From Bradyrhizobium sp. AZCC 2176 (GTDB taxonomy: Bacteria > Pseudomonadota > Alphaproteobacteria > Rhizobiales > Xanthobacteraceae), in the NCBI RefSeq assembly GCF_036924645.1, contig NZ_JAZHRX010000001.1, forward strand, positions 2,232,001 through 2,296,000: a stretch of DNA of 64,000 nucleotides, in the 5' to 3' direction. The stretch's first letter is position 1. Each line of letters opens with the position of its first letter. The position numbers were made by a program, and so were the translations under genes. Shown piece by piece: positions 5,075-63,980 of this stretch. The notes below the pieces were generated by a model. The model saw nothing but the letters and a program-made list of their open reading frames with translations, was not told where the DNA came from and ran no database searches.

Positions 5075-5304
5075 CGCCAATAGGGCAGCTATCGTTTGCC
5101 ACATCGCTCATGTCACCTCTGAGCGGACCGTCGCCTGTCTCAATTCAAAGACGGAAGTCACGACGCGCAGAAGGTGAGAGCTCAGACTTGCCGAGGCCGT
5201 CCAAAATCTGCGGTGCCCCAATTCGCCGATGGCCAGCAATTGGACCTACGACATTTAGCAGGCGATGAGACGTTCAAAGTACAAGATCGTGTGCATTTGC
5301 CAAA

Positions 5305-10420: not shown

Positions 10421-10633
10421 GGTTGCCCCGCACGCATCTTGCCGGTTGCAAATTGCCGGTTCCAGACGCCTCAAATTTTAGTCATCATCCACATGTAGTG
10501 GCATTGCGCGGCCGTTTCCAGCACATGTTGCGTTTTCTCGCTGCAACCATATGTAGAGGAATTGAGGCCCCGTGTGCTGGAAGCGGCTCGCCGGGAGGGA
10601 AACGCAGTGATTTCAATTTGCTAGGGCGTGCAA
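10421..10633. promoter_or_regulatory. Divergent promoter region qatA / metallophosphoesterase, with a direct repeat
   Basis: This gap must hold the promoters of two divergent genes. A 16-base imperfect direct repeat (ACATGTAGTGGCATTG at 10491 and ATATGTAGAGGAATTG at 10549) occurs 58 bases apart. It could be a shared binding site; no regulator is identified. Confidence 0.4.
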
Positions 10634-30395: not shown

Positions 30396-30400
30396 GGAAA

Positions 30401-32787: not shown

Positions 32788-32790
32788 TTC

Positions 32791-37848: not shown

Positions 37849-38163
37849 TTGAGTTACCGAGCTTACATTGCGAGTAATGCGTGGCGAAACAATCCCGCAC
37901 GCCTGAAGGTGCTCGCAGACGCTGACGGCCATTGCCGTCTTTGCCACGCGAAGTCCACGCTGGAAGTCCATCACTCGAACTACGAGCGCCTTGGCTGTGA
38001 GCGGGAAACCGACCTGATCGCCTTGTGCAGGCCATGCCATCGCGAAGTGACGAACTTCCTGCGAGCCCGGCGCTATGCCGCCACGACGCCGCGGCGCGCA
38101 GATGTCCAGCGATTGCGCGACCCTCGCACTCCTCAAACCGATCCGACGACGGGAGCATCGTGA
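37849..38163 (+). CDS. HNH endonuclease, TTG start
   Basis: This 104-residue protein carries a compact HNH domain: CRLCHAKSTLEVHHSNYERL followed by ETDLIALCRPCHRE, with both Cys pairs, the catalytic HH and the third His. TTG is chosen as start because GGAG lies six bases upstream and MSYRAYIASNAWRN then precedes the domain by the usual distance. It is a nuclease of the kind found in mobile elements and next to phage genes. Its stop overlaps the next gene's ATG (TGATG). Confidence 0.82.
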   Translation: MSYRAYIASNAWRNNPARLKVLADADGHCRLCHAKSTLEVHHSNYERLGCERETDLIALCRPCHREVTNFLRARRYAATTPRRADVQRLRDPRTPQTDPTTGAS

Positions 38164-38738
38164 TGAATCGCGAAAGCATGCGTCTCCGCATCACTGGCAC
38201 CAAAAGGTTGATCATGCACAGTGGGCGTTTGGCGGATCCGCTCGACCCGATCACGCAGGACCTGGCGCGATTGACCGCAAAGAGGCCCAAGACCATTGCG
38301 GACCACAAGCAGATTAGCAAAGTTGAATGGTTTGGTGGCCTTTGGTTGCACAACGGTGCGCCATGTATTCCAGCAGAAGCCCTTGCAGCAGCCTTCGTCG
38401 GCGGTGCCAAAGCTCTCAAACGCGGTCCGCAGGCTGCGGCCGGCATTGCCGTCGAGCACGATGGTGTTCTTTCCTATGACGGCCCCACCGACGTCGATCA
38501 GCTCTGGGAGACTGGCAGGTTCGTTTTCCGATGCGCCGTGAAGGTGGGGATCAATGCCAAAACGATGCGCACGCGCCCGTGCTTCAACGAGTGGCAAGCG
38601 GATCTCACGGTCAACTATTTCCCTTCAATCATTGACGGCGAGCACGTGATCCAAGCCCTCGCCATGGCCGGCATCCGTCGTGGACTCGGGGATTGGCGCC
38701 CTCAGAACGGCACCTTCGAAGTGAAGAAGCTCGAGTAA
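38163..38738 (+). CDS. Phage/mobile-element-type protein of unknown function
   Basis: This 191-residue protein begins RLRITGTKRLIMHSGRLADP and continues with KVEWFGGLWLHNGAPCIPAE and RGLGDWRPQNGTFEV. I associate this pattern with proteins of phages and integrative elements but know no function for it. It is co-translated with the HNH gene upstream through a one-base overlap. The protein looks globular, mainly beta, and has no membrane segment or catalytic motif that I can name. Confidence 0.7.
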   Translation: MNRESMRLRITGTKRLIMHSGRLADPLDPITQDLARLTAKRPKTIADHKQISKVEWFGGLWLHNGAPCIPAEALAAAFVGGAKALKRGPQAAAGIAVEHDGVLSYDGPTDVDQLWETGRFVFRCAVKVGINAKTMRTRPCFNEWQADLTVNYFPSIIDGEHVIQALAMAGIRRGLGDWRPQNGTFEVKKLE

Positions 38739-38936: not shown

Positions 38937-39386
38937 ATGGCGAGAAAGCCGAAGACCAAGATCAGGCATGGACGCCCAATGACGACGCCAATCCCTCTGC
39001 CGTCGCATCCCTTGGAATGGTGGCGCACCGAGCATGCCGAATTTTTCAACGGCGCAGCTGTGGTGGCTATGCGTAATGCCCTGGCAACGGTCGTCGTTCT
39101 TGGCGAATCGGGGTGGCGAGCGGCGGCTGCCGGAGACGCACCGGCCGCCATTGGTCTCGCCTTACGGTTGAACCCTCAGCGCTCGACCGGGAACGCATAC
39201 GATCTCATCATGACGGCGCTGGCCGCATGCGCGGCAGACGGAAGCGACGGAGCTGCGCTCGTGCTCTCGCATCTGATGCGCAAGATGCCGAACGCGAGCA
39301 ACACCCACGGGGCGATTGCAACGAGCTGGTTGCTGCGTTCCTTCGCGCAAGTTACCCGCCGTAGTGATCTGGGAGAACCTCTGTGA
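38937..39386 (+). CDS. Protein of unknown function
   Basis: This 149-residue, Ala-rich helical protein has AGGAG seven bases before its ATG, a strong start. The first 15 residues are basic (ARKPKTKIRHGRP). The body contains EWWRTEHAEFFNGAAVVAMR and ends in RSDLGEPL. I do not recognise it. Its stop overlaps the GTG of the metallophosphoesterase gene (GTGA), so the two are translationally coupled. Confidence 0.65.
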   Translation: MARKPKTKIRHGRPMTTPIPLPSHPLEWWRTEHAEFFNGAAVVAMRNALATVVVLGESGWRAAAAGDAPAAIGLALRLNPQRSTGNAYDLIMTALAACAADGSDGAALVLSHLMRKMPNASNTHGAIATSWLLRSFAQVTRRSDLGEPL

Positions 39387-40265: not shown

Positions 40266-40642
40266 CGCGTTCGTTTCCCTTTCTCGATCCAGCCGACATC
40301 TCGCTCGATCTCTCCCGCCGGTTTCACCTCCTCGCCGACGACTGCGAGCGGCTGCGGCTCAACCGGAACGTTTCGGCGAGACTTCTGGACAGGGCTCCGC
40401 TCCTGCGGGACTGGGTGCCCGTCGCAACGCCGGCAGGCTTGCACTTGGTCGGGCGCGTGGTGGGGCACCCGGTTCTCGGTGATCGCAGGGTGATGACGTC
40501 ACCGCTCTGGTGGGCGGATCCTGATGGCGAATGGGTTCGCACATTGTCGCGGTTTTACCGGCTGGGATCTCCGGCGGATGCGAACGACATTGGCCGCCTG
40601 TTCGATTCGTCTGAAGCCGCCGGTTCGGAGGACGAGGCATGA
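40259..40642 (+). CDS. Protein of unknown function (possibly DUF6634-like)
   Basis: This 127-residue protein has GRVVGHPVLGDRRVMTSPLW followed by WVRTLSRFYRLG, which reminds me of a family annotated DUF6634; that name is from memory and should be checked. No catalytic motif is visible. It overlaps the next gene, an AAA ATPase, by four bases, so it is likely its partner or adaptor. Confidence 0.65.
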   Translation: MLTRSFPFLDPADISLDLSRRFHLLADDCERLRLNRNVSARLLDRAPLLRDWVPVATPAGLHLVGRVVGHPVLGDRRVMTSPLWWADPDGEWVRTLSRFYRLGSPADANDIGRLFDSSEAAGSEDEA

Positions 40643-42207
40643 CCGCTACGGGTGACACCGATGATATCGACCTCCCCGCTGCCGAGGACGATGCGGCATC
40701 GACCGGTGCTGCCGCCGACTCGTCCGATCTGGACAAGCGCCTGCAGGCGCTGCCCCGCCTGCTGCGCTATGCGATGCTCGTTAATCGAGGCGCGCCGCAT
40801 ATCGAGGAGCGGCTGGTTGCCGAAATCAGCCAGCTCTGCCCCGGCCTGCCGCAGACAGTAGCTTGGGCGGTAACATGGAGCGCTGACAACGGGCTTCTAC
40901 TCGCGGCTGAGCTCGACCGGCGAGCCGTCAGCCAGGACGAGCCCGTCCTGCGCAGCCTCTCGGATTGCGTTCGACTGCTGTGCCTTCCTTTACCACATAG
41001 CGCGGACTTGTTTGACGACTATCGCCGGGTCGGGAAGGCGCTGGTCGAAGCGTTCCGAAATGTCTACCGCGAGACTGAGGAAGAGCTGCGCTGCGATCTC
41101 GAAGAATTCACCTATGGCTGGGCGGCCTTGCCCGCCTGCAGCGATCTCGTTTCAAAACATGTCGGCGCTGCTGAAAACGCAACGAGACTCGGTACCCTCA
41201 TGGCAGAGCTCCGGGTCGCTGCCGCCAAGGCGGCGATACGCCGCAAGCTGAAGGAAGAGGAGGCGGAGCGCCGGAAGCTGCAGGAAGCCGAGACCGCGGC
41301 CACAACCCAGCAGCAGGAGCTTCCTGCGGAGCCCGCTCCGGACCATGGCGTCGTCGTGGCGCGCCTCCCGGCGGAGGAGATGAAGAACAGCAAGCTCAAG
41401 GACATCCTCGGACCGTTGAAGTCCGTCATCAACGTCGCCTTGCCACTTATCGAGGCGCCGCCGCTGCACGAGGTGCGCAATGCGCTTCTGTTTGAATTCC
41501 CATACGCTCTTGACGTCACCGATTTCGCTCTCGCCGATCTCGTCGGCCGGACCACCGTTCATCTGCGGCCGCTGCTGCTCGTCGGCGATCCCGGCGGTGG
41601 GAAGAGTCGATTCGCTCGGCGCCTGGGCGAGCTGCTCCGCGTCAACGTCTGGCGCACCGATGCGAGCCGCTCTGATGGCGCGGTGTTCGGCGGCACCGAC
41701 CGCCGCTGGTACTCGGCCGAGCCTTGCCACGCGTTTCTGGCGGTGGCCCAAGGCAAGATCGCCAATCCGCTGATTTTGCTTGATGAACTGGAGAAGGCCC
41801 CGACCCGGTCCGACTACGGACGCCTCTGGGACTGTTTGCTCGGCTTCCTCGAGCCGGAGACCAACGCGCGCTATCCGGATCCGGCGCTGCAGACCAATCT
41901 GGACCTTTCCCATGTCAGTTACGTCGCGACCGCGAATAGTTTGGATCCCCTGCCCCTGCAGATCCGCGACAGGTTTCGCATCGTGAGGTTTCCGAAGCCG
42001 AAGCCGGACGATCTCGACGCTCTCTTGCCAGGCGTGATCGCCGACCTTACCCGCGAACGGAGCGTCAACGAACGATGGGTGCAGCCGCTCGACGGCGTCG
42101 AGCGCCGGATGATTGCCGAGCATTGGCAAGGCGGGTCTGTGCGTCAATTGCGACGCGTCGTTGAGGCTATCCTTAGGGAGAGAGAAATCCGTTCGATCAG
42201 GCACTGA
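40639..42207 (+). CDS. AAA ATPase, Lon-like ATPase domain without protease
   Basis: This is a 522-residue ATPase. The N-terminal 240 residues are helical and include a highly charged coiled coil (KLKEEEAERRKLQEAE) near residues 200-235. The AAA core shows Walker A LLVGDPGGGKSRFARRL near residue 315, Walker B LILLDELEKAP near residue 378, and YVATANSLDPLP followed by RDRFRIV, a sensor and arginine-finger arrangement as in Lon. The chain stops after the lid, with no Ser/Lys protease dyad, so it is a remodeller rather than a protease. It ends the run of coupled genes starting at the HNH gene. Confidence 0.82.
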   Translation: MTATGDTDDIDLPAAEDDAASTGAAADSSDLDKRLQALPRLLRYAMLVNRGAPHIEERLVAEISQLCPGLPQTVAWAVTWSADNGLLLAAELDRRAVSQDEPVLRSLSDCVRLLCLPLPHSADLFDDYRRVGKALVEAFRNVYRETEEELRCDLEEFTYGWAALPACSDLVSKHVGAAENATRLGTLMAELRVAAAKAAIRRKLKEEEAERRKLQEAETAATTQQQELPAEPAPDHGVVVARLPAEEMKNSKLKDILGPLKSVINVALPLIEAPPLHEVRNALLFEFPYALDVTDFALADLVGRTTVHLRPLLLVGDPGGGKSRFARRLGELLRVNVWRTDASRSDGAVFGGTDRRWYSAEPCHAFLAVAQGKIANPLILLDELEKAPTRSDYGRLWDCLLGFLEPETNARYPDPALQTNLDLSHVSYVATANSLDPLPLQIRDRFRIVRFPKPKPDDLDALLPGVIADLTRERSVNERWVQPLDGVERRMIAEHWQGGSVRQLRRVVEAILREREIRSIRH

Positions 42208-42290: not shown

Positions 42291-42626
42291 ATGACGAGAA
42301 AAACGCCGGTGCAAAGCGCGCGCGTGGAAGCCCGTCCCACCCCCGAATCCTGGGACATGGACGAACTCATGACTCTCAAGGAGGCCGTGGATCTCCACTG
42401 GCCTCAGGGGCCGATCACTGTCGCGACGCTACGCACCGCCATCCGGGACGGTCAACTTGCGGTTTGCGCGATAGCCGGGAAGTTCTTCCTGACGCGCCGC
42501 CTACTGCTCGGCCTGTCCACCGGCCGCGTTTTACCTCGCTCGCGGGAGGCGAGAGCGTCAGATCGGCTTCAAGGCGGCATGACGGAGAACGAGGCCCGGG
42601 CCGTCGCTGGACTGCCACCGCGGTAA
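42291..42626 (+). CDS. Excisionase-like small DNA-binding protein
   Basis: This 111-residue protein contains LMTLKEAVDLHWPQGPITVA then LRTAIRDGQLAVCAIAGKFF, the winged-helix pattern of excisionase/MerR-like DNA-binding domains. GAGGAA precedes the ATG. Its size and its position next to recombinase genes suit a directionality factor, but it could equally be a small regulator. Confidence 0.6.
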   Translation: MTRKTPVQSARVEARPTPESWDMDELMTLKEAVDLHWPQGPITVATLRTAIRDGQLAVCAIAGKFFLTRRLLLGLSTGRVLPRSREARASDRLQGGMTENEARAVAGLPPR

Positions 42627-43324
42627 AGCTGCCGGCACAGCAGCGCTCCCATCCAAAGAGAAGAAACCCGCCGAGACGGTTCAACGACTCGTCCGGCCGG
42701 CGAACAACAGCCCTCCGCCTCGCAGTCTCCATCATCGAAACGGTCGCTCGCCTCTCCGGACGGTAATTACTGCCGTCGACACATTCTCGGGACCTGTTTG
42801 GTTGGACCATCACCGAAGAAGGCGGCCAGTCGCCTCAATCTACGAGACCGACGCGACGGCGCCTCGCGAACGCGAGGCGTATCCCTTGGCTCGACAGAGG
42901 TCGAACACTATCGGTCCATTTCTATGCGGACTCATTCGGCGCTGTGCGCGTGAATTAGTCGGCAATTGATCGGAAAGCCGTCGGCCAAAAAGCCAGCAAT
43001 ACATTGACACGACTGAAAAAAGGTCCAACCCAAATTTGCTCAAGCTCTCCTCGCTGAAATACGGTCCTATTGATTCCAATGCATTTTCATGCGGCCGTAT
43101 GTGGTCTCAGCAAGCCCTAAACCGGCAAATATCGCCCAAATTGTCGGAAATTGATTGGCTCGAAAAAAATTCGAGTAGTATCAGGATACTACCTGTAAGT
43201 CGTTTTCAGGATGTCCGACTAGCCTATTCCTCCATCCCTTCGCCGCGAGAGGCAACACCATATACGTCGGCTTAGGTCATCCGCACGCGCGATCACTTGG
43301 CCGTTGGTCGGCAAGGCCGCGGCC
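42627..43324. other. Non-coding stretch, AT-richer, with palindromes
   Basis: No gene is supported in these 698 bases; short frames on either strand lack starts with ribosome-binding sites and sensible composition. The right half (about 42900-43260) is clearly AT-richer than its flanks. Palindromes at 43159-43192 are listed separately. Confidence 0.5.
43159..43192. promoter_or_regulatory. Two abutting palindromes, possible operator or recombination site
   Basis: CTCGAA-aaaaa-TTCGAG (43159-43175) abuts the perfect 18-base palindrome GTAGTATCAGGATACTAC (43175-43192, two-base centre). Neither has a T-tract, so a terminator is unlikely. They lie about 130 bases beyond the end of the repeat-array gene, a position suitable for an operator or attachment-type site. 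Confidence 0.45.
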
Positions 43325-45865
43325 TCAGCGGGACGAGCCCGAGGACCGTTTGGGGCTTTGCGGCACGATGCCGCGGCTCTTCAAGAATGATCGCAACGTC
43401 TGCGCCGGCATCGCGATGCCGAGCTCGTTCTTTAACCATGCAAGCGTGTCGCCGAATGCGGCGTTGGGATTGGCCTCAATCCAGGTCAGCAGCGCCGGCC
43501 CGTAAGATGCCTTAGGCCCTCCCTTACTGCGTCGCAGTTTGATGCCGCGGCGCTGCAAGAACGTTCGCAGTGCCTCCGGATTCGGAGCGGCCGTCCCCAG
43601 TTCTCCCGCCAGCCACGCAATCACCTGGTCGAATTGAGCATCAGGATTCTCGCCTATCCACGCCAACAGCTTGGTCTCGTACGAAACCTTGGGCCCGGGC
43701 CTGCGAGCACGTAGCTTTAGGCCGTTTCTCCTCGCGAACGCCCACAGCGTATTGGGCTCCACCGACATGCCGAGTTTGTCCTTCAGCCACGTGAGAGCCT
43801 CGTCTATCTCGGCATCGGGATTCCGCTCGGCCCAAGCCAGCAATGCCGCCCCGTAGGGCGCCTTAATGTTACTCTTGCTGGAACGCAGCGTAATACCGTG
43901 CCTCTTCAGGAAGGAACGCAGCGTCATGGCGGGCATCGCGACGCCGAGCTCGTCCTTGAGCCAAGCGAGCCCGTCACCGAAACTGGCGTTGGGATTGACC
44001 TCAATCCAGGTCAGCAATGCCGGCCCGTACGAAGCCTTGGGCCCTCCCTTATCAGGACACAACCTAATACTGCGATTTCTCAGAAACGAACCCAGGGTCT
44101 TGCGATTCAGCGCGATGCCGAGTTCATCCTTCAACCACGCGAGCGCCTCTACATTCGTGGCGCCAGGATTCGCCTCGATCCAAGCCAGCAACTCCCGCTC
44201 ATATGGCGCCTTGGGCCCTTGTTTGCCCGGACGCAGCCTAATGCTGCGACTCCTCAGGAACGCCCGTAAAGTCTCTGGAGCCACCGACATGCCGGCATCG
44301 CCGTTCAACCAAGCGAGTGCCTCACCGAATTCTGCGTCGGGGTTCGCCTTGATCCAGGCGAGCACTTGCCGCTCGTATGGCGCCGGTTTTCCCTTTGGCC
44401 GGTTGCGAACCTTGAGGCTTCGTCTGCGCAGAAAGCCGCGCACCGCCTCGATGTCGACGGCCATCTTCAACTCACGCTCGATCCAGACGACCACCTCGGC
44501 GATGTCGGCATCGGGATTTGCGCGTATGTACGCCTCCAGGCGCTCGGCTTTTTCCCCCACGAGTTTGAAGAGCGTGGCGAAGCGCAATCCACGGCTCCTG
44601 GCGAAGCTATAGAGTACGCCCCTTGAAAGGTCGCGCCGGAGGGTGTTTTTCGCCCAGGACTGGGCGTCGACGATAGTCTGCTCCGGATGGTTGCGGATGT
44701 GGGCCTCGACCCGCTTCGGATCGCGACCGTTGCGCAGCGCGCCTATCGGATGCGCGAGCTTGACCCCTTTGCGGCGTGCAATGTCGGTCAGACGATTATT
44801 GTTCGTCCGGACGCCCAGGCGCGCAGCCATCCAAGATACGTGTTCGGAGGCGGTCTTGTGCGGATGGCGGCGCGCATGCGCGACAAAGGCAGCCTGATAC
44901 GTTCGCGGCCCCATCCCGAGGCGTTGGCTGCTGTAGCCAGCGCGACGCGCCTTCAACAGTCTGCCCACCGACGTGACGGGAATTCCGTAATGGGCGGCGA
45001 TCTCGAACTCGTGGCGTCCGGCCGCCGTCGCCGCGAAGACGGCTTCAGCTAGTTCCGGCGGGTAGCAACACTTGCCCCGCCCCCCTTTGGCCGCTTCAAT
45101 TTCGGCGAGGGTTTCCGGACGAAGCTTCCGGAATGCGCGATCCGGATAGGCGCGCTCAAGCGGCCGTACATGCTGAAGGATGTCCCGCGTGAGCCGTGCC
45201 AGTGGATGACCAGCGCGTTCGACCGCTTTGCGCATTTGCGCCAGGGTTGGCTCGCCCACGCCGCCGAGTGCACGGGCCCGCCGCATCTCGGCGAGGCGGC
45301 GCGCCAGAAAGGCCTCGGCCAGCGGGTCGCCGCATTTCGATGCGCAGTCCTCGAAGAAGAACAGTATCTGCGTGGTCAGCTGGCCGCTGCCCAAGCCGAC
45401 TCTACCGCTGAGGTTCTTGAACCTCGACAGCACATCCTTCCCGTTCATGGGCGTTCCATCCCTGCGCACGAACAGACGGTTGCACCCGGGGGCCGGCGCG
45501 ATGCGGCCCACGACGCGCGCGAGGACCATCCTGGCTACTTCCGGCACCCAGACACGTCGGCGGTAGTCGCCGCGGCCGAGCCAGATGCCGTTATCGGCCG
45601 GAAGGGCGGGATCGAGGTTAGCGCCCGGCGGCACATTCTTAACTGCGATGTCCGCGGTCTCGATGAGCGGTATCTCCTCGGGCCAAGCGCCGCAGCAGAC
45701 GATAAGGGCGGCGATGCCAGCGAACTGGAGCTCGTAGGGGTCGTCCGGCCAGCGCGTTCGATAAATCCGCTCGTCGAAGAGATCGAGCAGATCGCCTGCG
45801 CCGGGCCCACTGCCGTCCCGCAGGCCGGTCGCCGCCGGCCCGTAGAACGGGATCCGACGCGTCAT
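43325..45865 (-). CDS. Degenerate tyrosine-recombinase-like protein with nine-unit repeat array
   Basis: This 846-residue protein starts at the ATG at 45865, which overlaps the stop of the recombinase gene by four bases. Residues 25-190 resemble a tyrosine-recombinase catalytic domain, but the box I Arg appears replaced (GAWPEE instead of GxRxxE, Trp at residue 61) and no HxxR box is found (QLTTQILFFF in the expected region). Residues 265-310 look like an HTH (FEIAAHYGIPVTSVGRLLKA). From about residue 323 to the end are nine repeats of about 58 residues with consensus LLAWIxxNPDAxFxEALAWL then TLRxFLRxRxIKLR. I know no family with this layout. It probably binds DNA as a partner of the active recombinase. 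Confidence 0.72.
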   Translation of the reverse strand: MTRRIPFYGPAATGLRDGSGPGAGDLLDLFDERIYRTRWPDDPYELQFAGIAALIVCCGAWPEEIPLIETADIAVKNVPPGANLDPALPADNGIWLGRGDYRRRVWVPEVARMVLARVVGRIAPAPGCNRLFVRRDGTPMNGKDVLSRFKNLSGRVGLGSGQLTTQILFFFEDCASKCGDPLAEAFLARRLAEMRRARALGGVGEPTLAQMRKAVERAGHPLARLTRDILQHVRPLERAYPDRAFRKLRPETLAEIEAAKGGRGKCCYPPELAEAVFAATAAGRHEFEIAAHYGIPVTSVGRLLKARRAGYSSQRLGMGPRTYQAAFVAHARRHPHKTASEHVSWMAARLGVRTNNNRLTDIARRKGVKLAHPIGALRNGRDPKRVEAHIRNHPEQTIVDAQSWAKNTLRRDLSRGVLYSFARSRGLRFATLFKLVGEKAERLEAYIRANPDADIAEVVVWIERELKMAVDIEAVRGFLRRRSLKVRNRPKGKPAPYERQVLAWIKANPDAEFGEALAWLNGDAGMSVAPETLRAFLRSRSIRLRPGKQGPKAPYERELLAWIEANPGATNVEALAWLKDELGIALNRKTLGSFLRNRSIRLCPDKGGPKASYGPALLTWIEVNPNASFGDGLAWLKDELGVAMPAMTLRSFLKRHGITLRSSKSNIKAPYGAALLAWAERNPDAEIDEALTWLKDKLGMSVEPNTLWAFARRNGLKLRARRPGPKVSYETKLLAWIGENPDAQFDQVIAWLAGELGTAAPNPEALRTFLQRRGIKLRRSKGGPKASYGPALLTWIEANPNAAFGDTLAWLKNELGIAMPAQTLRSFLKSRGIVPQSPKRSSGSSR
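43328..44905 (-). repeat. Tandem ~174-bp coding repeats inside the repeat-array gene
   Basis: Seven well-conserved units and two diverged N-terminal ones, each about 58 codons, run head to tail. Approximate unit edges are 44905, 44731, 44557, 44383, 44209, 44035, 43861, 43687 and 43510. The units ending at 43862 and 43328 share ASYGPALLTWIE and LRSFLK and look like recent duplicates of each other, so copy number may change by recombination. Confidence 0.8.
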
Positions 45866-47562
45866 GGCGTCGCCGCGAACTTCGCGGCGACGTCGTCGAA
45901 CGGTGCCGACGCGTAAGCAATGCTGCCGGCGTCGGCAGCGGGTACCTCGGCGAGATCGTCCATCCGCAGACGGTGGGCCGCCAAGCCCCTGTTGGCCGCG
46001 CGCAACGCGGCGAGCGCCTCCTCGGCCTCGGCCATGGCGTCGGCCGGCGCCTCGGCACACTCTTCCTGCAGACGTTTGGCCTTCAGACGCGCGATCGCGC
46101 GGGCGTAGAACCGCACGCGGTCGCTGTCTTCTGGCATAGTGTATTCAACATCCCGGAGTGCCCGCGCTTTCTGCTTCGAGTTCGCCTCGCGCAACGCCTG
46201 CGCCTCGCTTCTGGCGGCGCGCTCGTTCCAGTCAGTGTAGGACTTCAACAGGATTTCGGCTGTCATGCCGATCATGTGCGTCGCCGTCGCCAACGACCAG
46301 CACTGGAGATGCGCCTCCTCTACCGCAGTCCGGCGCAGCGAATGCTCGGTGTAATTCGCCGGCAGCCCCGCGTCCTTGACCACGCTCGCGAGCGAGAGCG
46401 ACGAATAATGCTTGTCATTCTTCTTCCGGATGAGATAGCGCTGCTTCTTCCGCACGGTGCCGTTCTCCCGGTCGCGCTGGGTGACGCGCTTGGACTGGCC
46501 GTCCTCCTTCTTCCAGATGCGGAGCAGGCATCGCAGCCGGTCTGGAACGAGGCTAGACGGACGCGACTTGTTGGTCTCGACCTCCTCAGTGCCGCGCCGG
46601 TGGAACATGCCCGCGCCGTCGTCGTCGACCTCCACACACGTCGTGTGGGGAGCCAAGCCCCACACCACACCCAACAGATCCTGCTCGCGAGCACCGGTGC
46701 GCACGCCGAGCCGGATGAAGCGCGATTTGCCCTTGCGCGCGGCGATGATCCATGCCGGACGAACGACGCGCGTCGTCCGCGTGACGCCGTTCGCGTCGAC
46801 GTACGTCCGGGTCTTCCACTTGCCCGTCTTGCGGTCCTTGACCCAGCCGCGGCACGCCAGCAGCAGCGCGGCCTGCTCCGAACGCCGGAAGAACGGGCCC
46901 GGCGGGATCTGCTCGCCCTCTGGAATCTTGATGTCCGGATACCAGCCCATGTTCTCGTCGCGGGCGAAGTCCTGGGTGAAGCTCTTAAGCGCGCGCAGCA
47001 GCACGTTGGCGCCGTTCGCGGCCGATCCGCGACGATCGGGATTCCGAAGGTAGGCGGCCGACCGACAGCCGACGTACCAAGTCTGAAACTCGTCCGAGTC
47101 GCCGGGACGGTAATCGATCAGCTTCATTTTGCCGAAGTGCTGCAGCCACCAGACCGATTGCCTCTGCGCCGTGGCGAAGGCGGCCAGCTTCCGCGGCGTA
47201 TTCGCGTTACGCTTCAGGCGGGCCAAGCCGCTTGCGATTATCTCCGCAAACGTGATCTGCCCTGGAGCCTCCCGCGCCTTGCGGCCGAGCCGGACGTCGC
47301 GGCAGAACTCCTGATACTTGTCGTCCGCCTCCTCCTTTTGGTCCTGATTGCAGCCGGTCGAGTAGTCCTTTTTGTAATGGTAGATGTAGTACGTGCCGTA
47401 CGGCGCGTCCTTGGGCCAACCCTTCGGCGCCTTCGCCTTCTTGAGATACAGACGCGGCTTGCGGACTTTGGGGCCGCGCGGCTCGCGCACGAAGCCGTCG
47501 AGCAGCTTCGGCGCCTGCTTACCCCTCCTCCGTCCTCCCTTCCAATATTGATTATTCGACAT
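45862..47562 (-). CDS. Tyrosine recombinase (integrase), first of a coupled pair
   Basis: This is a 566-residue site-specific recombinase. The start is the ATG at 47562, preceded by GAGG. Catalytic residues are visible as Arg292 (RTGAREQD), His407 and Arg410 (EHSLRR), His429 (THMIGM) and the nucleophile Tyr442 (KSYTDWN), so it should be active. N-terminal to the core is a basic region (RRRGKQAPKL, KVRKPRLYLKKAK) and an SAM-like helical domain; C-terminal are 110 extra helical residues. Its stop overlaps the repeat-array gene (ATGA). Upstream lies a palindromic ATGCAT array shared with a divergent gene. Confidence 0.88.
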   Translation of the reverse strand: MSNNQYWKGGRRRGKQAPKLLDGFVREPRGPKVRKPRLYLKKAKAPKGWPKDAPYGTYYIYHYKKDYSTGCNQDQKEEADDKYQEFCRDVRLGRKAREAPGQITFAEIIASGLARLKRNANTPRKLAAFATAQRQSVWWLQHFGKMKLIDYRPGDSDEFQTWYVGCRSAAYLRNPDRRGSAANGANVLLRALKSFTQDFARDENMGWYPDIKIPEGEQIPPGPFFRRSEQAALLLACRGWVKDRKTGKWKTRTYVDANGVTRTTRVVRPAWIIAARKGKSRFIRLGVRTGAREQDLLGVVWGLAPHTTCVEVDDDGAGMFHRRGTEEVETNKSRPSSLVPDRLRCLLRIWKKEDGQSKRVTQRDRENGTVRKKQRYLIRKKNDKHYSSLSLASVVKDAGLPANYTEHSLRRTAVEEAHLQCWSLATATHMIGMTAEILLKSYTDWNERAARSEAQALREANSKQKARALRDVEYTMPEDSDRVRFYARAIARLKAKRLQEECAEAPADAMAEAEEALAALRAANRGLAAHRLRMDDLAEVPAADAGSIAYASAPFDDVAAKFAATP

Positions 47563-47674
47563 CGAACCTAACCTCGCCCGCGCCCATTGCTGCGATGGCT
47601 TGGCGATCGCCGCTGAACTCGAGGTCACAGCACTTAAAGGTTGACGCCCATTCACACGCGCGAATATGGTCTAT

Positions 47675-47712
47675 CTCATGCATCGAATGCATTTATGCAT
47701 CGCATGCATGAG
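47675..47712. promoter_or_regulatory. Near-palindromic array of four ATGCAT boxes
   Basis: ATGCAT occurs at 47678, 47687, 47695 and 47704, spaced 9, 8 and 9 bases, and the outer arms CTCATGCAT and ATGCATGAG are perfect inverted repeats. The site lies in the 172-base gap between the recombinase gene and the divergent 327-aa gene. It looks like a cooperative operator or a recombination core site for two dimers. Confidence 0.6.
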
Positions 47713-47734
47713 GTGACAAGCCCGGAAAGTGGCG

Positions 47735-48718
47735 ATGGCAAAAAAAGGGTTAACAGGTCGTTACACCGCGGATGGACTGCGCGACATGCTGCGAGGAATC
47801 CCGCGAGCGCCTTGGCATGTGACGGCCGGGCTCATGCGTCAGGCGCTGGCTCCAGGAAAGCTTGATTCCGAGACCGTCAGGCGAATTGCCAGCGAGGCCA
47901 CCGGGTTGAGCTGGGGTCTGCTCACGAGATACCTCAATGTACTTGGGAGAATCGAAACCGCAGCCTCATCTGCGGGCGTGCCCCCGGACGACCTGATTTC
48001 CCCCGGCTTCAACGGCGTGGAAATCGCCATACGCCTGTATGATCGCTCGTCCGAACTTGGGCTCGCCGCCCTGCGCGGATTGCACGACGGCACCACGTCC
48101 CTCGCTGAAGTTCGCAATCGGCTGGCGAGCGCTCCGGCTGGATCGGCGGACGCCGACGTCGTTTCCCGTAGCCGCCTTCTGCGCAGAAATGCCACCGAAA
48201 TCCAGGCAGTGGAGGACGCGGTGGAAGCGGCACGCGGAGCGTTATTTCCCAAGGATTCGATTATTAGAAGAAGGCGCGGCCTGCTCTACTTCCGGCGGGT
48301 CGGCATAGAAATCATCGCATCAAACGGCGCGCCGCTTTGCGGCTTGGACATCGTTACAGATTCAGCACAGGGCCGCGATTCCTTGGACGCCGGCTTGGCC
48401 CAGTCGGTGCTGCTCTCAACATATTTTCCGAGATTCCATCTCGTCTTTTCGCCAAGCGCGGATGCTTCGACGATCGACGAGGCCGTCTCGGCACTCGAGC
48501 TGCTCACCGTCCCCTGGATAGGAATAATACAAGTCTTAGAGACCGGACGTCTCGAAATCATACGCAAACCGTCCGTATCTCCATTGCCTGATCGCAGCGC
48601 ACAGTATTCGAAGCTTGTTTCCAAACTAGCCGTCGGCAGGACGACCGCACTGCCGGCAGATCGAAAGCGTGTCGATCAACAGACGTCCAATCAGAATCGG
48701 CGCCGCAAGGATGATTAA
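47735..48718 (+). CDS. Protein of unknown function divergent from the recombinase pair
   Basis: This 327-residue protein uses the ATG at 47735, with GGAAAG upstream; a GTG two codons earlier is possible. The N-terminal 100 residues are helical (LDSETVRRIASEATGLSWGL, TRYLNVLGRIETAA). The C-terminal half looks alpha/beta: RRGLLYFRRVGIEIIASNG, then PLCGLDIVTDS and FHLVFSP. The second half might be a degenerate nuclease-like fold, but I see no firm catalytic set. Its position across the ATGCAT array suggests that it regulates or assists the recombinase pair. Confidence 0.65.
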   Translation: MAKKGLTGRYTADGLRDMLRGIPRAPWHVTAGLMRQALAPGKLDSETVRRIASEATGLSWGLLTRYLNVLGRIETAASSAGVPPDDLISPGFNGVEIAIRLYDRSSELGLAALRGLHDGTTSLAEVRNRLASAPAGSADADVVSRSRLLRRNATEIQAVEDAVEAARGALFPKDSIIRRRRGLLYFRRVGIEIIASNGAPLCGLDIVTDSAQGRDSLDAGLAQSVLLSTYFPRFHLVFSPSADASTIDEAVSALELLTVPWIGIIQVLETGRLEIIRKPSVSPLPDRSAQYSKLVSKLAVGRTTALPADRKRVDQQTSNQNRRRKDD

Positions 48719-48756: not shown

Positions 48757-50403
48757 CTACGCGGCTCTCGTTTGCGCTGACACGGATCGCTCGCGTTGCA
48801 GGAGCGCGACAGCTCTCGCCAGAACGTCATCGCCTGCGGCGCGATCCATCCTGAGGCAGCTTTCACTGACGTCATATCGCGGAAACAAGTTCATCCAGGC
48901 GGCCGTAACGTCGACAGGGAAGAAGCCATAGTTGCCGCCTTCTGTTGGAAACGCGTGCCCTTGGATGTAGAGCCTGACGTCCGGATCCATTGCAATTCGA
49001 CGGCACTCCGTCTTGAACCGGTGCCGCCAACCATGGTTCGGGGCCACCGACTTAGGAGCGATGCCGGCAACAGTACGCGCCCATTCTGCCAACCCTTCTG
49101 CACGTGTCTTGTGGATGGTAAGCTTTGGTTGCTTCAGCTTCTCGCCTTCAAAAAAAAGGGGCTGGCCAGACCGACGATCGACAAACTGTAGAAATCCTTG
49201 CTCGATTAGATCGCGGTGTATCGGCACAAGCCGCGGCCGCCCATTCTTGCTTTCCTGGATGTCGATTGCGAACACACCCGCTTCCTGAATGATGTGCTTC
49301 GATTCAAGGCGAGTTATCTCTGCAACCCTAGCGCCCGTATAGGCGAGAAGCCAAGGAACCCATCGTCGAGCATTGGCGACATCCTCGCTGACATCCTCTT
49401 GGGGTTCGAGGCTTGCTTTCAGTATCGAAAACACCTCTCCGTCCCTGAGATCCTTCTCACGGGTGCGTGCGAGCGGCCGCCCATCCACGGAAATCGCCTC
49501 GCATGGATTGACCTCGATAAGGCCGCGCTTACGGGCTGAATTGAAAATAGTCTTGAGCGCAGCGAGATATCCATCCCTTATCCGAACATCGCTCAGCTTT
49601 TCCCGTTCCTTCAGATGAGTGAGCCAGCTCAAGACATCGGAGCGGGTGAGCCGAGCCACTTCGTCGTGACCAACGAATGCGACGAACTTGTCGATACACG
49701 CCTTGAAACCAGCGTGGGTATCCGGCTTAGCTTCGGGTCTTGCACGCTTCCACGAAGCACAAAGCCCCGAAAGTGTTGTGGTTTCCGGGTTGGGCCACGC
49801 CGGATAACGATCCTCATCCTGGTCAGGTCGGAGGTCACCCTCCCACCGCCGTAAGGAAACGCGACAAGCGTGCTTGGCCGCACGTTGCGCTGCCAGAATG
49901 AGATGCCAGCGTTCCCACGCGGGAAGTATCAAACCTCGCGCGGCCAGCACGGCATCCACGTGGCGCCCTTGAAAGCTCTCGAGAGCTTCATAGTCGTCTT
50001 CCGGCTTCGTAATTTTCCGTGGCAGTTCCCCATCGATCTCCTGCATGAGACCGAGCATCCCCGCCGCACTCACTGGTGTGTGAAAATACTCTGGAGGATA
50101 GCCTCGCAGCCAACGGCGATAGACCTCGCCGGTCAAAGCCTCGCGCTGGACAATCGTCAATCCTTCGACGGCGCCTTTACGCAGTTGAGCCCATCGCGCT
50201 TCGACATCATGGTCGTACTTGGCCCAGGCGGCATGCGCTCTCGTCCGGTCCTTGCCGAGGCGCTTCTTTTCTTCGCGCTTGTGCTGTCGCGGACTTCCGG
50301 CAGTCGCAACGGCATCCAGATCGCGCAGAATTTGCCGCACGTCCTCCGGAATCCGCCGTCGGTAGTGATAAACTCCCGCCCGATCGCGGATCGGACCCTT
50401 CAT
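48757..50403 (-). CDS. Tyrosine recombinase (integrase), second
   Basis: This 548-residue recombinase starts at the ATG at 50403 with KGPIRDRAGVYHYRRRIPED, the N-terminal pattern of DUF6538-type integrases. Catalytic residues are Arg359 (AYTGARVAEI), His457 and Arg460 (NHGWRHRF), His483 (QGHA) and probably Tyr492 (GGNYGF). It shares ARRWVPW, AYTGARV and APNHGWRHRF with the recombinase at 62712, so the two are related, while the one at 45862 is more distant. It lies at the left edge of the DUF6361/PLD/helicase block and faces the unknown 327-aa gene tail to tail. Confidence 0.87.
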   Translation of the reverse strand: MKGPIRDRAGVYHYRRRIPEDVRQILRDLDAVATAGSPRQHKREEKKRLGKDRTRAHAAWAKYDHDVEARWAQLRKGAVEGLTIVQREALTGEVYRRWLRGYPPEYFHTPVSAAGMLGLMQEIDGELPRKITKPEDDYEALESFQGRHVDAVLAARGLILPAWERWHLILAAQRAAKHACRVSLRRWEGDLRPDQDEDRYPAWPNPETTTLSGLCASWKRARPEAKPDTHAGFKACIDKFVAFVGHDEVARLTRSDVLSWLTHLKEREKLSDVRIRDGYLAALKTIFNSARKRGLIEVNPCEAISVDGRPLARTREKDLRDGEVFSILKASLEPQEDVSEDVANARRWVPWLLAYTGARVAEITRLESKHIIQEAGVFAIDIQESKNGRPRLVPIHRDLIEQGFLQFVDRRSGQPLFFEGEKLKQPKLTIHKTRAEGLAEWARTVAGIAPKSVAPNHGWRHRFKTECRRIAMDPDVRLYIQGHAFPTEGGNYGFFPVDVTAAWMNLFPRYDVSESCLRMDRAAGDDVLARAVALLQRERSVSAQTRAA

Positions 50404-50439
50404 GCGACGCGCCCCATTTTGCGGGCACTGGAATAGCAA

Positions 50440-50560: not shown

Positions 50561-51988
50561 TTATGGTTGACGGGCCATCCGCTCAAAGTCACTCTCGCCC
50601 AAGATCCTGATCGACTGCCCGGACGAGATCAGTGCCTCTGCTTTTCGCTGCTTGGAGCTCTTCTCGTAACCTTTGGTCGCGCGCAGATCTTGGTCGCCAA
50701 CGACCAGCAAGGTTGTCCTTTGGGTCACGCTTTCAGCAACATCGCAACCGGCTTCCGCGGCCAAGGCTGCGGCTGCTGATCGTGTGATGTTAAGGCGTCC
50801 CGTAAAGACCACAACTTCTCCTGCCAACGGGCCCGTCTTGTTCCCAGACTGCGCGACTGCAGCTTCGGCAATCGGTTGTTCGACCCGTCTCAGCCAGTCG
50901 ACTATCCCAAGGTCACTATCAATTTGGGCCCGCTGGAGAAGCAGACCAGCCGCCCGAGCGTCCTCGGCCGCATCGTGATGCCTGAACTCGATGCCAAATG
51001 TAGACGCCAATCGCTTCAAACCATACCCACCACCATCCTCGACGAACTCAGGCCATGCCCTCCGAGCTACACGAAGCGTGTCAAGCCAGATACACGGCAA
51101 CGGTTCTGTGCCGTACTTCTCCGCCGCTCGCGTAAGCGCCGTCTTATCAAAATGAGAGTGATGAACGACAACCACGTCTTGGAGTGCGGCCGCAATGACG
51201 GGAAACACCGTCCTCATGTCTGGTTTCCCTTGCACCATCTCCGGAGTGATTCCGTGGATCGATATATTCATCGGGTCGAATTCATCTCTTGGGTCCACTA
51301 GGATCGTAAGCGATTTGAATATCTCCCCACGACGAAAGTGAACTAATCCAATGGAGCAAATGCTCGCTGAGTCAGCGTTCGCGGTCTCTACATCCAAGGC
51401 GATAAAATCAGTAATGGCCTCCTGATTTGGATCCAGAATAATAGCTGGCGTCTTTCGCTTGCTTGCGGGCTTGTCGTCGAAGGCAGGTTTCGGCGCGTTC
51501 ACGCCAGCTTGCTTTAGCGCTTGCCAACGAGCCATCTCCAGGCGCTGAAGCAGCTTCGGAGGCTTGACGCCAGGCGCGTGCGGTTGAGCGGCGTATCGTT
51601 TCAGGACCGCGATCTCATCATCAAAGCGATCCAGCTTACGATAGATGATTGCAGCCTGTTCGTAGTACCATGGAGCAACGCCGCCAAGTCCGGCAGCGCA
51701 ATCTCGCTCCTGAAGATCCATTTCGTCGTTCAGTAAAGCGAGCGCGTCGGCATATCGCTGGTGACGCTTAAGTTCTTTCACTTGCTCGACAAGGTTCTCG
51801 ATTCTACCCGTCTCGCGCTCATAAGAGCGCCCCATCTTGGCGCTGCGATCAGCGAAAATGTCCGCCGGAGTAATATCCAATGCTCCGATTGAAGTTTCCG
51901 GGACCGTTACCGAAAGAGCACTATCGCAATGATCGTGTTTGTTTCGAAACCATCCGGCCGGCTTTCCGCAGACGACGCAATCCCCCAC
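50561..51988 (-). CDS. DnaQ-like exonuclease with C-terminal BRCT domain
   Basis: This 475-residue protein starts at a GTG at 51988, with GGGAGGG eight bases upstream; longer frames overlap the previous gene. The N-terminus has a Cys/His cluster (CVVCGKPAGWFRNKHDHC), possibly zinc-binding, then a tetratricopeptide-like helical part. The DEDDh exonuclease follows: FIALDVETANADSAS, VVVHHSHFDK and HHDAAEDARA. The last 75 residues form a BRCT domain (GEVVVFTGRLNITRSAA). Such exonuclease-BRCT proteins recur in defence and mobile loci. It is the last gene of the minus-strand block, 16 bases after the HEPN gene. Confidence 0.85.
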   Translation of the reverse strand: MGDCVVCGKPAGWFRNKHDHCDSALSVTVPETSIGALDITPADIFADRSAKMGRSYERETGRIENLVEQVKELKRHQRYADALALLNDEMDLQERDCAAGLGGVAPWYYEQAAIIYRKLDRFDDEIAVLKRYAAQPHAPGVKPPKLLQRLEMARWQALKQAGVNAPKPAFDDKPASKRKTPAIILDPNQEAITDFIALDVETANADSASICSIGLVHFRRGEIFKSLTILVDPRDEFDPMNISIHGITPEMVQGKPDMRTVFPVIAAALQDVVVVHHSHFDKTALTRAAEKYGTEPLPCIWLDTLRVARRAWPEFVEDGGGYGLKRLASTFGIEFRHHDAAEDARAAGLLLQRAQIDSDLGIVDWLRRVEQPIAEAAVAQSGNKTGPLAGEVVVFTGRLNITRSAAAALAAEAGCDVAESVTQRTTLLVVGDQDLRATKGYEKSSKQRKAEALISSGQSIRILGESDFERMARQP

Positions 51989-52004
51989 GACGTGAGCCCT
52001 CCCT

Positions 52005-52775
52005 CTAAGAAGCCGGTTTAGGTCTCCGCGCGTCCACAATGCGCAAGAGGTGCGAAGCCAAGAGGAGCCGATCCTTCGCGTCGTCCAGATCAATTGCCAG
52101 TTTCCGGTGGGAGACTGGATTTCGGTAGGCATTCATCGCGCCGATGAAGAGTGTTTGCAAACCCAAGCGCTCCTTCTGAGGCTTGGTCGTATCCCGATCG
52201 CCCAATGGGCCATTGTCGGGATCGAAGGCCTTCTTCATCAAGGCGTCTCCATAATCCTTCGCGTCATAGCCACCTGCCAGGCGCACGGCATCCTCCACGG
52301 TCACGAACGCATCCCGCACGGCATCGGCAAGGTCGCCTTGCGAGGTGGTGTTCGTGCTGCGCACGATTGCGTTCCATGCTTTCTCGCGGATGTCTGGATG
52401 CAGAAGGGATTTTGGGAACGCCGCCGCGTCCAGCAAACGCTGCATGTCTTGACCTTCGGCGACCCCTAACCCCTTTGGAGTGAAGTCGCGCCAACCGTGC
52501 ACGCCGTTTATGCCGGCGGAGCGCTCTATGAGGCCTTCTCGCTCCAGCCAATTCCAGGCGGAGTTGACGTGACGCTTGACCTGATCACTCGCCGGATACG
52601 GATAATCCTTCCCATTAATCACCTCCGACGCGTCCGGTTGGGTTACGCTCTCTGGGACAAAACCAGCCGCTTGCCGCTGATCGAGCGCCATCTTCAAGAG
52701 GACCGGCCCCAAAACCTCTGGAGCAAGTTTCAGCACATAATCGGGGTTTGGAAACTTTGAAAAGAGCGACGGCAT
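52005..52775 (-). CDS. HEPN-domain protein of the Ymh/TIGR02391 type
   Basis: This 256-residue protein ends with a Ymh-like C-terminal domain: RSTNTTSQGDLADAVRDAF is at its start and LFIGAMNAYRNPVSHR at its end. RNPVSH fits the R-x4-H motif of HEPN ribonucleases. The N-terminal 100 residues contain a winged-helix-like part (VNSAWNWLEREGLIERSAG). The family is associated with abortive infection. It lies 80 bases after the helicase gene and 16 before the exonuclease gene, so it could be the RNA-cleaving effector of this block. Confidence 0.75.
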   Translation of the reverse strand: MPSLFSKFPNPDYVLKLAPEVLGPVLLKMALDQRQAAGFVPESVTQPDASEVINGKDYPYPASDQVKRHVNSAWNWLEREGLIERSAGINGVHGWRDFTPKGLGVAEGQDMQRLLDAAAFPKSLLHPDIREKAWNAIVRSTNTTSQGDLADAVRDAFVTVEDAVRLAGGYDAKDYGDALMKKAFDPDNGPLGDRDTTKPQKERLGLQTLFIGAMNAYRNPVSHRKLAIDLDDAKDRLLLASHLLRIVDARRPKPAS

Positions 52776-52855: not shown

Positions 52856-55800
52856 TTACTGAACCTCCCGCCTAACGCTGAGCGACTCTGTCATTGATGG
52901 AGAAAGGTTCAGCGCAAGCCCCCGGGCTATGTCCGGACTGGCATCGATATGTTTTAGGAAGTTTATGAACGCCTCCGGATCTGGCTGGCCGATGCCAAGA
53001 CGATAAAACATCAAATCATCTTGCAATCTCTTCAGGCGCCGCGCACGAACACTGAAATCCATATTGAAGGTAATACTGGTCGGCTTCTCTGAGGCGGGCG
53101 TCCACCACTTTTGTAGCCCTATCCCGTCATCGGGCGCCAAATGTGCCCTCTCAAATAGCTCGATGAACGGACTATTCCTAGAGGCAGCTTTGTAAACTGA
53201 TGGCGAGTGCTGCGCGACAAAGGCACGACGTACCGTCAAGCTTGAGTAGCGAGATACCCTCCCTTCCCGCTGCTCAAACTCGACCGGTCCGACTGGAAGA
53301 TCCCAATGAACAATCATGTCACACCAATAGTGGAAATCTAGTCCTTCCTGCCCAATAGACGTCGTTGAGAGTACATGCGGCCAAAATGGCGAGTTAAACG
53401 CTCGACGTAGCGTGTCCGATCGCAATTTCTCATCCTTGCGATCGTGCCCTCCACCCCTTCGTTCTCCTCCAGAGAACGGAGCGGCAGCGTGAACGCGCAC
53501 AGGAGAATCCGATCCGCGACGACGAAGCCGGACCAACCCTGGTCGATCCAACAAGCCATTGCCCAATTCAACAATGAGCTCGCTCCCCTTCTTGTCACCG
53601 AGAGTCCGCAGCAATGCGAGCTGCTCATCGAGAACCGCCTCGAAACCTCCCTTCGTAAGCGCCATCATAAGAGACTGCGGATAGCGCTTCCTTGACCTAC
53701 CCACCACCGCGCGCTCAAAATAGCGCTGTCCCAAGTAGGTCCTCAATTTCGTCCAGCAAAAATCAAACGCTTTCTGAACAATCTTTTCGTCGAGGTTCTC
53801 GCGTACTTTCAGTGCGACGCCATGTCGTGCTAACGAACGAGCCACGATGGGACCGGGCGCCGACAGCAAGAATTCTGCCAAACGTTCAATTTCAATTGTC
53901 GAAATTTGAGTGATCTGTGGTGTCTTAGACCACACGTCAAGTGTGCTTAGTAGCGCCGGAATGCGAAGCGACCTTGTCAATTCCCGCGCTATCTGGCTGT
54001 TCCCACCAATTTCCAAAGCCACCGCTACCTTCCACGTCGGACGGGAAGGACCATTCTTGATCTCGATCCCTCGTTGCTCGATCCACACTCTGAGTTGCTT
54101 TGCCGCGTCGCGGACAATAGAGGATATTCCGAGGGCCGGGTCCTTCTTCGGCTCTATAGCCGCCGATAGCGATGGCCAAGGTGCGAACATCGCCAGTAAC
54201 CCATGATTGAGTCCGACATTCGGACGCAGATACGACTGCGTCTTGACCTTAACACCTCGCAACTTGGAGCCGATGGATGCTTCGTCGATTGGCAGACTAA
54301 GAAGAGCGCTGACCGCTGTTGGCACCGCTCGAAATTTGCTGAACAAGAGCACCTTGCCGCAGTTTCTGCTTTGATTTTCTGCCCAGGCTCCTTCCAGCGT
54401 CCACCATGGCAACGAGGGTTTCAACCACGGCAACTGCAATAGTTTAGCGTCGACAACAGAGTTGCTCAGCTGCCGAAACTGCGGATGTGCCGGCCGGGCC
54501 CTACTGTTCTCAATTGTTATCCGAGGTCGCCGCCTTGCTCTTAGAAGAGCCTTCCACACTCCGTAACCATGCAAGGTTTGCGCTGGATAGGGTACGGAGG
54601 ACCACAATGGAGTAGTCCACGAGCGCAAGCGGTCATTCTTAACAGCAGCCACTGAGGTAGCGAGATGTCTGAAGACCTCGATATCCGCTGACTCGATGGA
54701 AGTTGGAAGCGCGCATCTGACAAATTGATCGTCCGTTAGTGCGAGAGCTCGCTCAGTCCGCGCGATCACAGGTTTGAATATGGCTTCCAGTTGCCGTTTA
54801 GCCAGAAGAATGCGTTGCTTGGCCTGGTCGACCTCCTCCCTGCTCGCGAGCGCTCTGTGATATGCGCTTATGGATTCTGTTACCCTTCTCGCAAGGCTGT
54901 CGCCTTCTGGTCCATAGAGAAACTTTACGAGCTCTATCAGAGACCCGTAGCGCTGCCCTGGATTAATTTGTGATCCGTCAAGGCGGCTGAGTTTGTAGGG
55001 AGTCGCCGAAAGCAGAAGGACAGCTGGAGAACGCCCGCCATTTCCATTTAACAAAGCGTCAATAAGAATCTTATGGACCCGCTGTCGATCCGCCAGGATT
55101 TTGCCAGCGCGCTGCTGCTCAATCGACGCCGACTTTTTAGACAAGTTACCGCGGCTCGGTACGATGAGATCGGCGTAGCGGTGAAATTCATCTAGGATCA
55201 ACAGATCGGGAGAGGTCCTCTTTCGGCTAAGCGCGGCAAGAACCAGCGCACTCCGGCATCGCGCCACGAACTCCAACGGATCCTTTGTCCACTCGAGCCA
55301 CGATCGCATTTCGGGCTCGAGATGCCCTCCGTCACAATTGAATATCGCTCGTAAAGCCTGATCAAAAGAAGAAGCAAGCGGAGAGACATCGTCGCTTGAT
55401 GCCTCAAACAGTGGCGTCTTAGCACCTCGGTTGCTCTCCAACATTCGAAGGTCGCGAACAAGGTCGGGATAGCCACGCCTGATCAGGTTCCAAATAAGCG
55501 ACCGTTCCTGCTTCCTTCCAGTTCTTGCGCCCGGCTTCCAGCAGGGCAAGCTTGTCTCTGGGGTCAACGAAAGGACACGAAACCCGTTTCCACTCGGTGG
55601 CGGACTCCAAAGAGAAAGCGAGAGCCGATCTGCTCCCGCGGACTGCTCTGTCCTGGTCAGGCCGGTAAGGGCCGCAAACTTGTCGCGATTCTGCGCGGCA
55701 ATTTCCAAACTCGGACAAAGATAGAAGATGTTTAGAGAATGACCCGATGGCTTGAGGCGTTCGGCGACCGCCCGAGCCACGATGGTTTTTCCCAAGCCAA

Positions 55801-62443: not shown

Positions 62444-62711
62444 CCATCCCCCGAAGCTGCTGCCGGGCCCTCGGGACTCGGCTCCCGCAACAACGATACC
62501 GGCCTTCAAGCAAACGCGAAAGAGCAAAGCGAGACACGCAAGGCGCGAACGGACCGCATCCAGGCTCTATCCCTTCGAAGACAGAGCCGCTCCGACGAGA
62601 GTCGGCGCCGCATCCGCCGGGGCACCGTACCCAGACGTCACAATCGCGCGCCGCCTTGACACTTGGCCTTGCACCAAGGCGCGTCATTGGGCTCGGCCAA
62701 GCCATTGGCTA

Positions 62712-63956: not shown

Positions 63957-63980
63957 GTGTACCATCGTTGTGTACCAACG
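63957..63980. repeat. Direct repeat at the third integrase start
   Basis: GTGTACCATCG and GTGTACCAACG are repeated with a 13-base period, overlapping the possible start codons of the integrase. They may be an operator, recombinase arm sites, or part of an attachment site. Confidence 0.4.

Follow-up and report, generated by a model that had tools for sequence, protein, structure and literature searches.

The DNA analysed here, referred to as the window, is a stretch of 64,000 nucleotides from Bradyrhizobium sp. AZCC 2176 (contig NZ_JAZHRX010000001.1, positions 2,232,001 to 2,296,000). Its reverse strand carries two coupled genes, one for a tyrosine recombinase (YR; P0002) and, directly downstream, one for a large protein that we call the partner (P0001). 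The partner appears to combine a recombinase domain stripped of its catalytic residues with a long array of helix-turn-helix (HTH) units (Table 1). The two genes are tightly joined: the partner's ATG at 45865 overlaps the YR stop, as the original prediction, made from the letters of this DNA, had stated, and the overlap is 4 nt long (ATGA). The YR open frame spans 45862-47655 on the minus strand (597 codons); since three homologues begin only at its residue 32, 47562 is the probable start of the gene.

By its sequence, P0002 is an active-looking tyrosine recombinase, and several results support this assignment. In the numbering of the 597-aa frame it has R323 (the box I Arg), K363, H438-x-x-R441 (box II) and Y473, in line with the intact recombinase that had been predicted. 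In an alignment of eight YRs, none of the four residues R323, K363, H438 and Y473 varies. Position 441 is Arg in the window YR, its near relatives and the YR of locus L037, and Lys in both distant YRs that are paired with a partner (L036, 9381-10919; L105, 413-1876). The box III His that is usual in YRs is seen in none of the 20 YRs aligned here. P0002 matches a PHROG integrase (E 1.7e-5), and the YR family profile matches the PDB integrase 3nkh (E 1.4e-4) and XerA 5hxy (E 8.2e-4).

Profile comparison identifies a YR catalytic domain without the catalytic set at residues 47-224 of the partner. Partner columns 47-224 aligned with columns 155-319 of five Xer-type proteins at an hhalign E of 3.7e-12; with the control alignments (one reversed, 12 column-shuffled) E was 0.14-0.91. 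The region also retrieved Xer proteins in whole-genome searches. In the L105 partner the domain matched the XerC model (E 2.6e-7), a PHROG integrase (E 6.3e-8) and PF00589 (E 1.8e-5, just below Pfam's cut-off). The best PDB profile match for the region, a weak one, was again XerA 5hxy (E 0.017). The box I Arg is absent from all six partners that have the region; its place is taken by Trp in P0001 (Trp61) and P0003, Ser in P0004, Phe in P0006, and Thr in L036 and L105. In the alignment the box II His is gone from all six, and the box II Arg is kept in three (P0006, L036 and L105). P0001 itself lacks the box II His, the box II Arg and the catalytic Tyr at its expected place. P0005, which has a different N-terminus, was left out of this alignment. 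Thus, the predicted recombinase-like N-terminus without the box I Arg and the HxxR residues is borne out.

The C-terminal part of the partner is built of repeats. A unit profile placed nine units in P0001, at residues 323, 385, 441, 497, 555, 613, 671, 729 and 788, and self-comparison of the protein peaked at lags 58 and 116. About nine repeats of 58 residues had been expected, and the LAWI, NPDA and LRxFLR anchors described for them are real. In the predicted model each unit consists of three helices, at moderate confidence. Partner family columns 263-366, which hold the first HTH and unit 1, aligned with the N-terminal parts of three IS630 transposases in hhalign (E 2.2e-10; 0.37-0.96 for one reversed and 12 shuffled controls), and the second HTH of this IS630-type region recurs nine times in P0001. 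At the same place the NCBIfam IS630 model matched P0001 (E 6.7e-15), P0003 (2.1e-13), P0006 (9.5e-18) and the L036 partner (5.2e-8), whole-protein values that are helped by the repeats. The P0001 match lies below the model's cut-off of 100 bits, and the P0001 stretch alone, as a 156-aa fragment, gave E 8.1e-4. The model was matched over the first 130 of its 299 positions only, and the Pfam matches of the partner included no transposase catalytic domain (DDE). Whole P0001 matched PF13592 (HTH_33; E 2.6e-9) and PF01498 (HTH_Tnp_Tc3_2; E 2.5e-10), and units 6 and 9 gave weak PF13592 matches singly (E 7.3e-4 and 0.0076). A weak match also linked the partner profile to Sleeping Beauty in the PDB (5unk, E 0.018). 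Residues 319-846 of P0001 have an isoelectric point of 10.67, and the array is basic in all five partners tested. These results support the assignment of the array as predicted HTH modules of the transposase DNA-binding type.

The number of units varies: P0001 has nine, P0006 eight, P0003 and P0005 five, P0004 four and L105 about four (three scored, one of them in full, and one by eye). One full and one partial unit were scored in the L036 partner, whose array is split by an IS21-type insertion. Units 1-3 match one-to-one in P0001 and P0003-P0005; hence it is towards the C-terminus that these partners differ in unit number. Units 6 and 9 share 81% identity in protein and 79% in DNA, compared with 53-68% in DNA for other pairs of units 4-9, which suggests recent copying. 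Conservation by codon position among units 4-9 is 0.62/0.75/0.53, and because third positions are least conserved, the pattern is as under purifying selection. The most varied columns of these units are 16 and 35, followed by 3, 30, 32, 33 and 47. In the model helix 3 begins with columns 33-35, yet the variation does not cluster in them.

In all three partner loci with flanking DNA (the window, L036 and L105), the YR gene lies directly upstream of the partner on the same strand. Among these three loci no partner lacked a neighbouring recombinase, which supports the suspected tie between the two genes. These loci span two orders at 24-30% identity, L036 belonging to the same genus and L105 to another order of the same class. 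By the listed starts, the genes overlap by 4 nt in the window and L105 and are 2 nt apart in L036. The metagenome proteins P0004 (partner) and P0009 (YR) each list one contig of 8801 nt, so a fourth pair is likely. We aligned 20 YRs in a tree with a midpoint root. A branch with 100/98 support holds the YRs whose partner has been seen or inferred (P0002, P0009, L036 and L105) together with P0008, P0010 and P0011 (partner status unknown), apart from 13 partnerless YRs; L037 and L117 form long branches. This split fits a partner that was gained once and has since been inherited together with the YR for a long time. An open frame and the same domain order are kept in the window, L105 and the metagenome proteins P0003, P0004 and P0006, at 26-54% identity to P0001.

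Besides the window's own proteins, protein searches returned four partner and four YR relatives, and the same four with a wider partner alignment; as these searches were word-based and scored about 8000 candidates each, the absence of further members is weak evidence. Pattern scans of genome and viral contigs with both families confirmed no additional member. P0001 matched four of 100 genomes at E 1e-3, two of which (G000 and G014) hold the partner, the other two matches being short and weak. With a first partner profile (A4), 41 of 397 genomes sampled from the order gave a match at 1e-3. The eight matches that were opened were rejected as partners: five are Xer-type recombinases and three read as IS630 transposases, names also given by NCBIfam to all five of the former and to both of those scanned among the latter. 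A wider profile (A6) had matches at 1e-6 in 12 of 368 genomes sampled from the phylum, with the window's own as the only full-length match; the other 11 were set aside by length and matched region alone. At 1e-8 the YR profile had matches in 58 of 397 order-level and 4 of 385 class-level genomes, the window's own in each, and wide surroundings were fetched for 12 and 1 of these, respectively.

Table 1. Features of the YR-partner locus and its surroundings, in window coordinates.
Feature	Position	Strand	Remarks
Tyrosine recombinase gene (P0002)	45862-47562	-	566 aa, from residue 32 of the frame
Partner gene (P0001)	43325-45865	-	846 aa; start overlaps YR stop by 4 nt
Degenerate YR catalytic domain	45194-45727	-	partner residues 47-224; hhalign match to Xer alignment
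IS630-transposase-type DNA-binding region	44699-45040	-	partner residues 276-389 (first HTH and unit 1)
Nine tandem HTH units	43328-44899	-	partner residues 323-846; 56-62 aa apart
Small gene, putatively RDF-like	42291-42626	+	excisionase/RDF-like by position only
Interval between RDF-like gene and partner	42627-43324		about 700 bp; holds two near-identical 15-mers TCGGMAATTGATYGG
Two tandem near-palindromes ATGCATCGAATGCAT, ATGCATCGCATGCAT	47675-47712		between YR gene and divergent gene 47729-48718
Companion genes common to window and L036	37849-39386	+	HNH 37849-38163; unknown 38154-38738; unknown 38937-39386
AAA protein	40639-42207		no peptidase match
Integrase-like genes	48757-50439; 62712-63965		DUF6538 in both (one below cut-off)
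DEDDh exonuclease frame	50561-52132		BRCT domain
Hypoth_Ymh frame (PF09509)	52005-52775		overlaps exonuclease frame
Defence island	5643-62527
Qat	5643-10474
Wadjet/Jet I	12518-19263
Zorya I	28386-36132
Zac	52856-58928
MkoA-like helicase/nuclease	59045-62527
Direct-repeat cluster (TCGACTCACGAATTTTGG-like)	5305-5500		copies 23-51 nt apart

Several small features surround the pair. From its position we infer that the small gene beyond the partner is like an excisionase or recombination directionality factor (RDF). Its relatives lie beside or overlap a YR gene in nine loci (L036, L037, L106, L107, L108, L110, L111, L115 and L117; E about 5e-4 or better), and its product has no Pfam, PHROG or NCBIfam match. 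The three companion genes share 47%, 42% and 33% identity with those of L036; the YR-partner operon runs antiparallel to them in the window and parallel in L036. The near-palindromes before the YR gene are likely to be an operator. The 15-mers, at 42959 and 43144, are candidate sites only: the genome holds two exact copies of TCGGMAATTGATYGG, each next to the partner, and six one-mismatch copies elsewhere. When up to two mismatches are allowed, the window's three matches are equalled or exceeded in 5 of 100 shuffles, and the pattern itself was drawn from these very sites. The direct-repeat cluster has three good copies and weaker CGACTC copies, adjoins qatD at the island's left border and has no good copies elsewhere in the genome. 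It was considered as a partner binding site and is not claimed as such, for it lies 38 kb away and has no copy on the right side. On the left, synteny with four relatives breaks off at 4981-5118. To the right, all four relatives have matches from window coordinate 84 kb onward, but in places distant from where they match the left flank, so no empty site is readable. The left flank of L036 is a multi-copy gene and was useless for end-finding. Inverted repeats between the two sides of the pair did not rise above shuffled sequence.

The pair lies within an island of phage-defence genes. These defence systems are cargo neighbours of the pair, and we claim no functional link. On a Methylobacterium plasmid (L037), a YR without a partner stands directly beside relatives of the window's Qat genes. 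Two further integrase-like genes lie near the pair in the window. A third, beyond the window (L060 211-1395), is presumably of P4 type from the look of its start; a tRNA-Ser lies about 8.4 kb beyond it. In L036, an FtsH-like protein (6058-8415; AAA and M41 peptidase), whose AAA part resembles IetA, stands beside the distant pair, at the place where the window has the AAA protein of Table 1. Short frames upstream of the YR gene in L036 (8844-9373) and L037 (9748-10407) match the N-terminal part of the YR profile and are possibly remnants of duplicated recombinase genes. XRE-type HTH regulators adjoin the partner in L105 (4441-5637) and L036 (15850-17154), with 42% identity over 286 aa (E 1.5e-60); we found no counterpart in the window. 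Elsewhere in the island, the Hypoth_Ymh and DEDDh exonuclease frames are a possible uncharacterised defence pair.

Dead YR partners are already known. SE elements (strand-biased circularizing integrative elements) have a recombinase operon at one element end that includes Tfp, a dead protein of YR fold without the RHRY residues, which the authors suggest may bind DNA but not process it (PMC10214605). This operon pairs an active YR with a YR-fold protein without the full catalytic set, and the window operon, judged by sequence, is similar. However, SE operons consist of intA-tfp-intB and srap and hold two active YRs, whereas the window operon has one YR and the gene upstream of it is divergent. 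SE were seen by their authors in Gammaproteobacteria only, and the available part of that paper describes no HTH array. GInt islands, which carry cargo, have GinC, a degenerate YR that lacks the first Arg, in a YR operon whose four gin genes are all needed if the island is to excise and integrate (PMC5385486). This operon, ginABCD, holds three YR-like genes and the small GinD, whereas the window operon has two genes; again no HTH array is described in the available text. PMC5385486 lists Alphaproteobacteria among the GInt hosts, and PMC10214605 found none there. The likeness of our pair to Tfp and GinC is one of description. The array has another kind of relative. The partner shares its two-HTH region with the IS630/Tc1-mariner family, but repeats the second HTH and has no DDE domain. 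RdfS, from a rhizobial host, lays rows of winged HTH (wHTH) modules on attachment-site DNA beside a YR and serves excision, with about 10 bp per module and indirect readout proposed (PMC11963761). This likeness, too, is one of description; RdfS is a small oligomerising protein whereas the partner has its modules in one chain with a dead YR domain. RIT elements have three adjacent YRs, all with the catalytic Tyr, unlike the pair. Gamma-Mobile-Trio islands, which PMC12715929 cites, reportedly combine recombinase genes with defence cargo. The NCBIfam models GmtY and GmtZ matched none of P0001, P0002, P0003, P0006, P0009, both L036 proteins and the YRs of L105 and L037 at E 0.1, nor the L105 partner at 0.01. 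We found no YR partner with an HTH array reported in the open PMC literature, which excludes most subscription papers. The claim that no described system has this layout is therefore too strong: the dead YR subunit has precedents, and it is the IS630-type array on it for which we found no description.

Based on these results, we propose that the pair is probably a two-subunit integrase or recombination module of an integrative element, with the partner as a non-catalytic subunit that holds DNA or selects the site. This proposal builds on the coupling of the genes, the homologies, the catalytic loss, the co-conservation and the variable number of units. The YR would make and rejoin DNA breaks. 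By analogy with Tfp and GinC, the dead YR domain of the partner may dock with the YR, with the core site, or with both. The IS630-type HTH and the nine units may grip an extended piece of DNA at an element end or attachment site, which would be about 100 bp if one module covered 10 bp as in RdfS. This grip would assemble, orient or direct recombination. The locus would then be a mobile element whose two proteins touch, whose partner binds DNA at particular sites and which uses both proteins in integration or excision.

Several observations weigh against this proposal. The partner is absent from 13 of 15 opened YR-family loci outside the window and present in two, one of which is the broken copy of L036. 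Seven of the nine units, scanned singly, match no HTH transposase family, and the HTH homology of the array does not prove DNA binding. Neither P0001 nor P0002 matched PF00589 at E 0.1, and P0002 matched no NCBIfam model at that threshold. AlphaFold2 gave the partner N-terminus a pLDDT mostly below 50 in both models and hence no usable fold, and did not supply the structural proof that the original prediction had called for. No element ends, att sites, empty site or binding sites were found, and the flanks gave no clean junction.

Other explanations have to be set beside it. The original prediction saw in the array a possible sequence-reading targeting subunit. In this reading it would recognise the chromosomal target, and gain, loss or divergence of units would change the insertion site. 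Unit numbers of four to nine among the homologues, the recent copying of units 6 and 9 and the varied columns at the start of helix 3 agree with this idea. Yet we consider it unlikely, because the first three units match one-to-one, which confines the count difference to the C-terminal end, other columns vary as much, no target site was found, and wHTH filaments such as RdfS and BldC are thought to use indirect readout (PMC11963761). We are similarly doubtful that the pair is a naturally modular integrase, in which a separate, evolvable array would choose the target or attachment DNA and the number and sequence of its units would set which DNA the dead subunit delivers to the active enzyme. 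The partner could instead be mainly a regulator, acting on the YR operon or the island as an autorepressor or silencer and dispensable for recombination. An HTH array and operator-like palindromes before the YR gene would suit such a role, and factors of the RdfS type can also regulate transcription (PMC11963761). However, the fusion to a YR catalytic domain and the coupling to one YR branch point to a recombination complex, and we give this explanation a small chance.

Two further explanations are, in our judgement, very improbable. The partner might be a functionless composite in decay, in which a recombinase remnant became fused to an IS630 fragment by accident. Its rarity and the IS21-type insertion in the L036 copy would be expected of such a protein; the conserved frame and domain order at 26-54% identity and the codon-position pattern of the units would not. 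A scaffold, in which the units would form helical repeats for contacts with protein instead of DNA, is about as remote. It draws on the Foldseek results, where the whole model matched a mixture of helical proteins best, among them UFL1, a mitoribosome chain and a Sel1-repeat protein, but none of them significantly (E >= 0.018), and on the VIA list, where sigma-54 chains and Pax5 share first place. Against it, transposase HTH models are the best family matches, the IS630 match lies far above its controls, and the array is basic.

In sum, we regard the partner as a predicted dead YR subunit that bears an expandable array of DNA-binding type, related to a transposase family. With its YR it would form a recombination module of unusual design in an island rich in phage-defence genes. 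The role of a dead recombinase-fold subunit was left open by Tfp and GinC, and here it becomes testable, since units can be counted and swapped. An array that sets the site would make the pair a modular integrase; one that only wraps DNA would make the partner a covalent version of the wHTH filaments of directionality factors.

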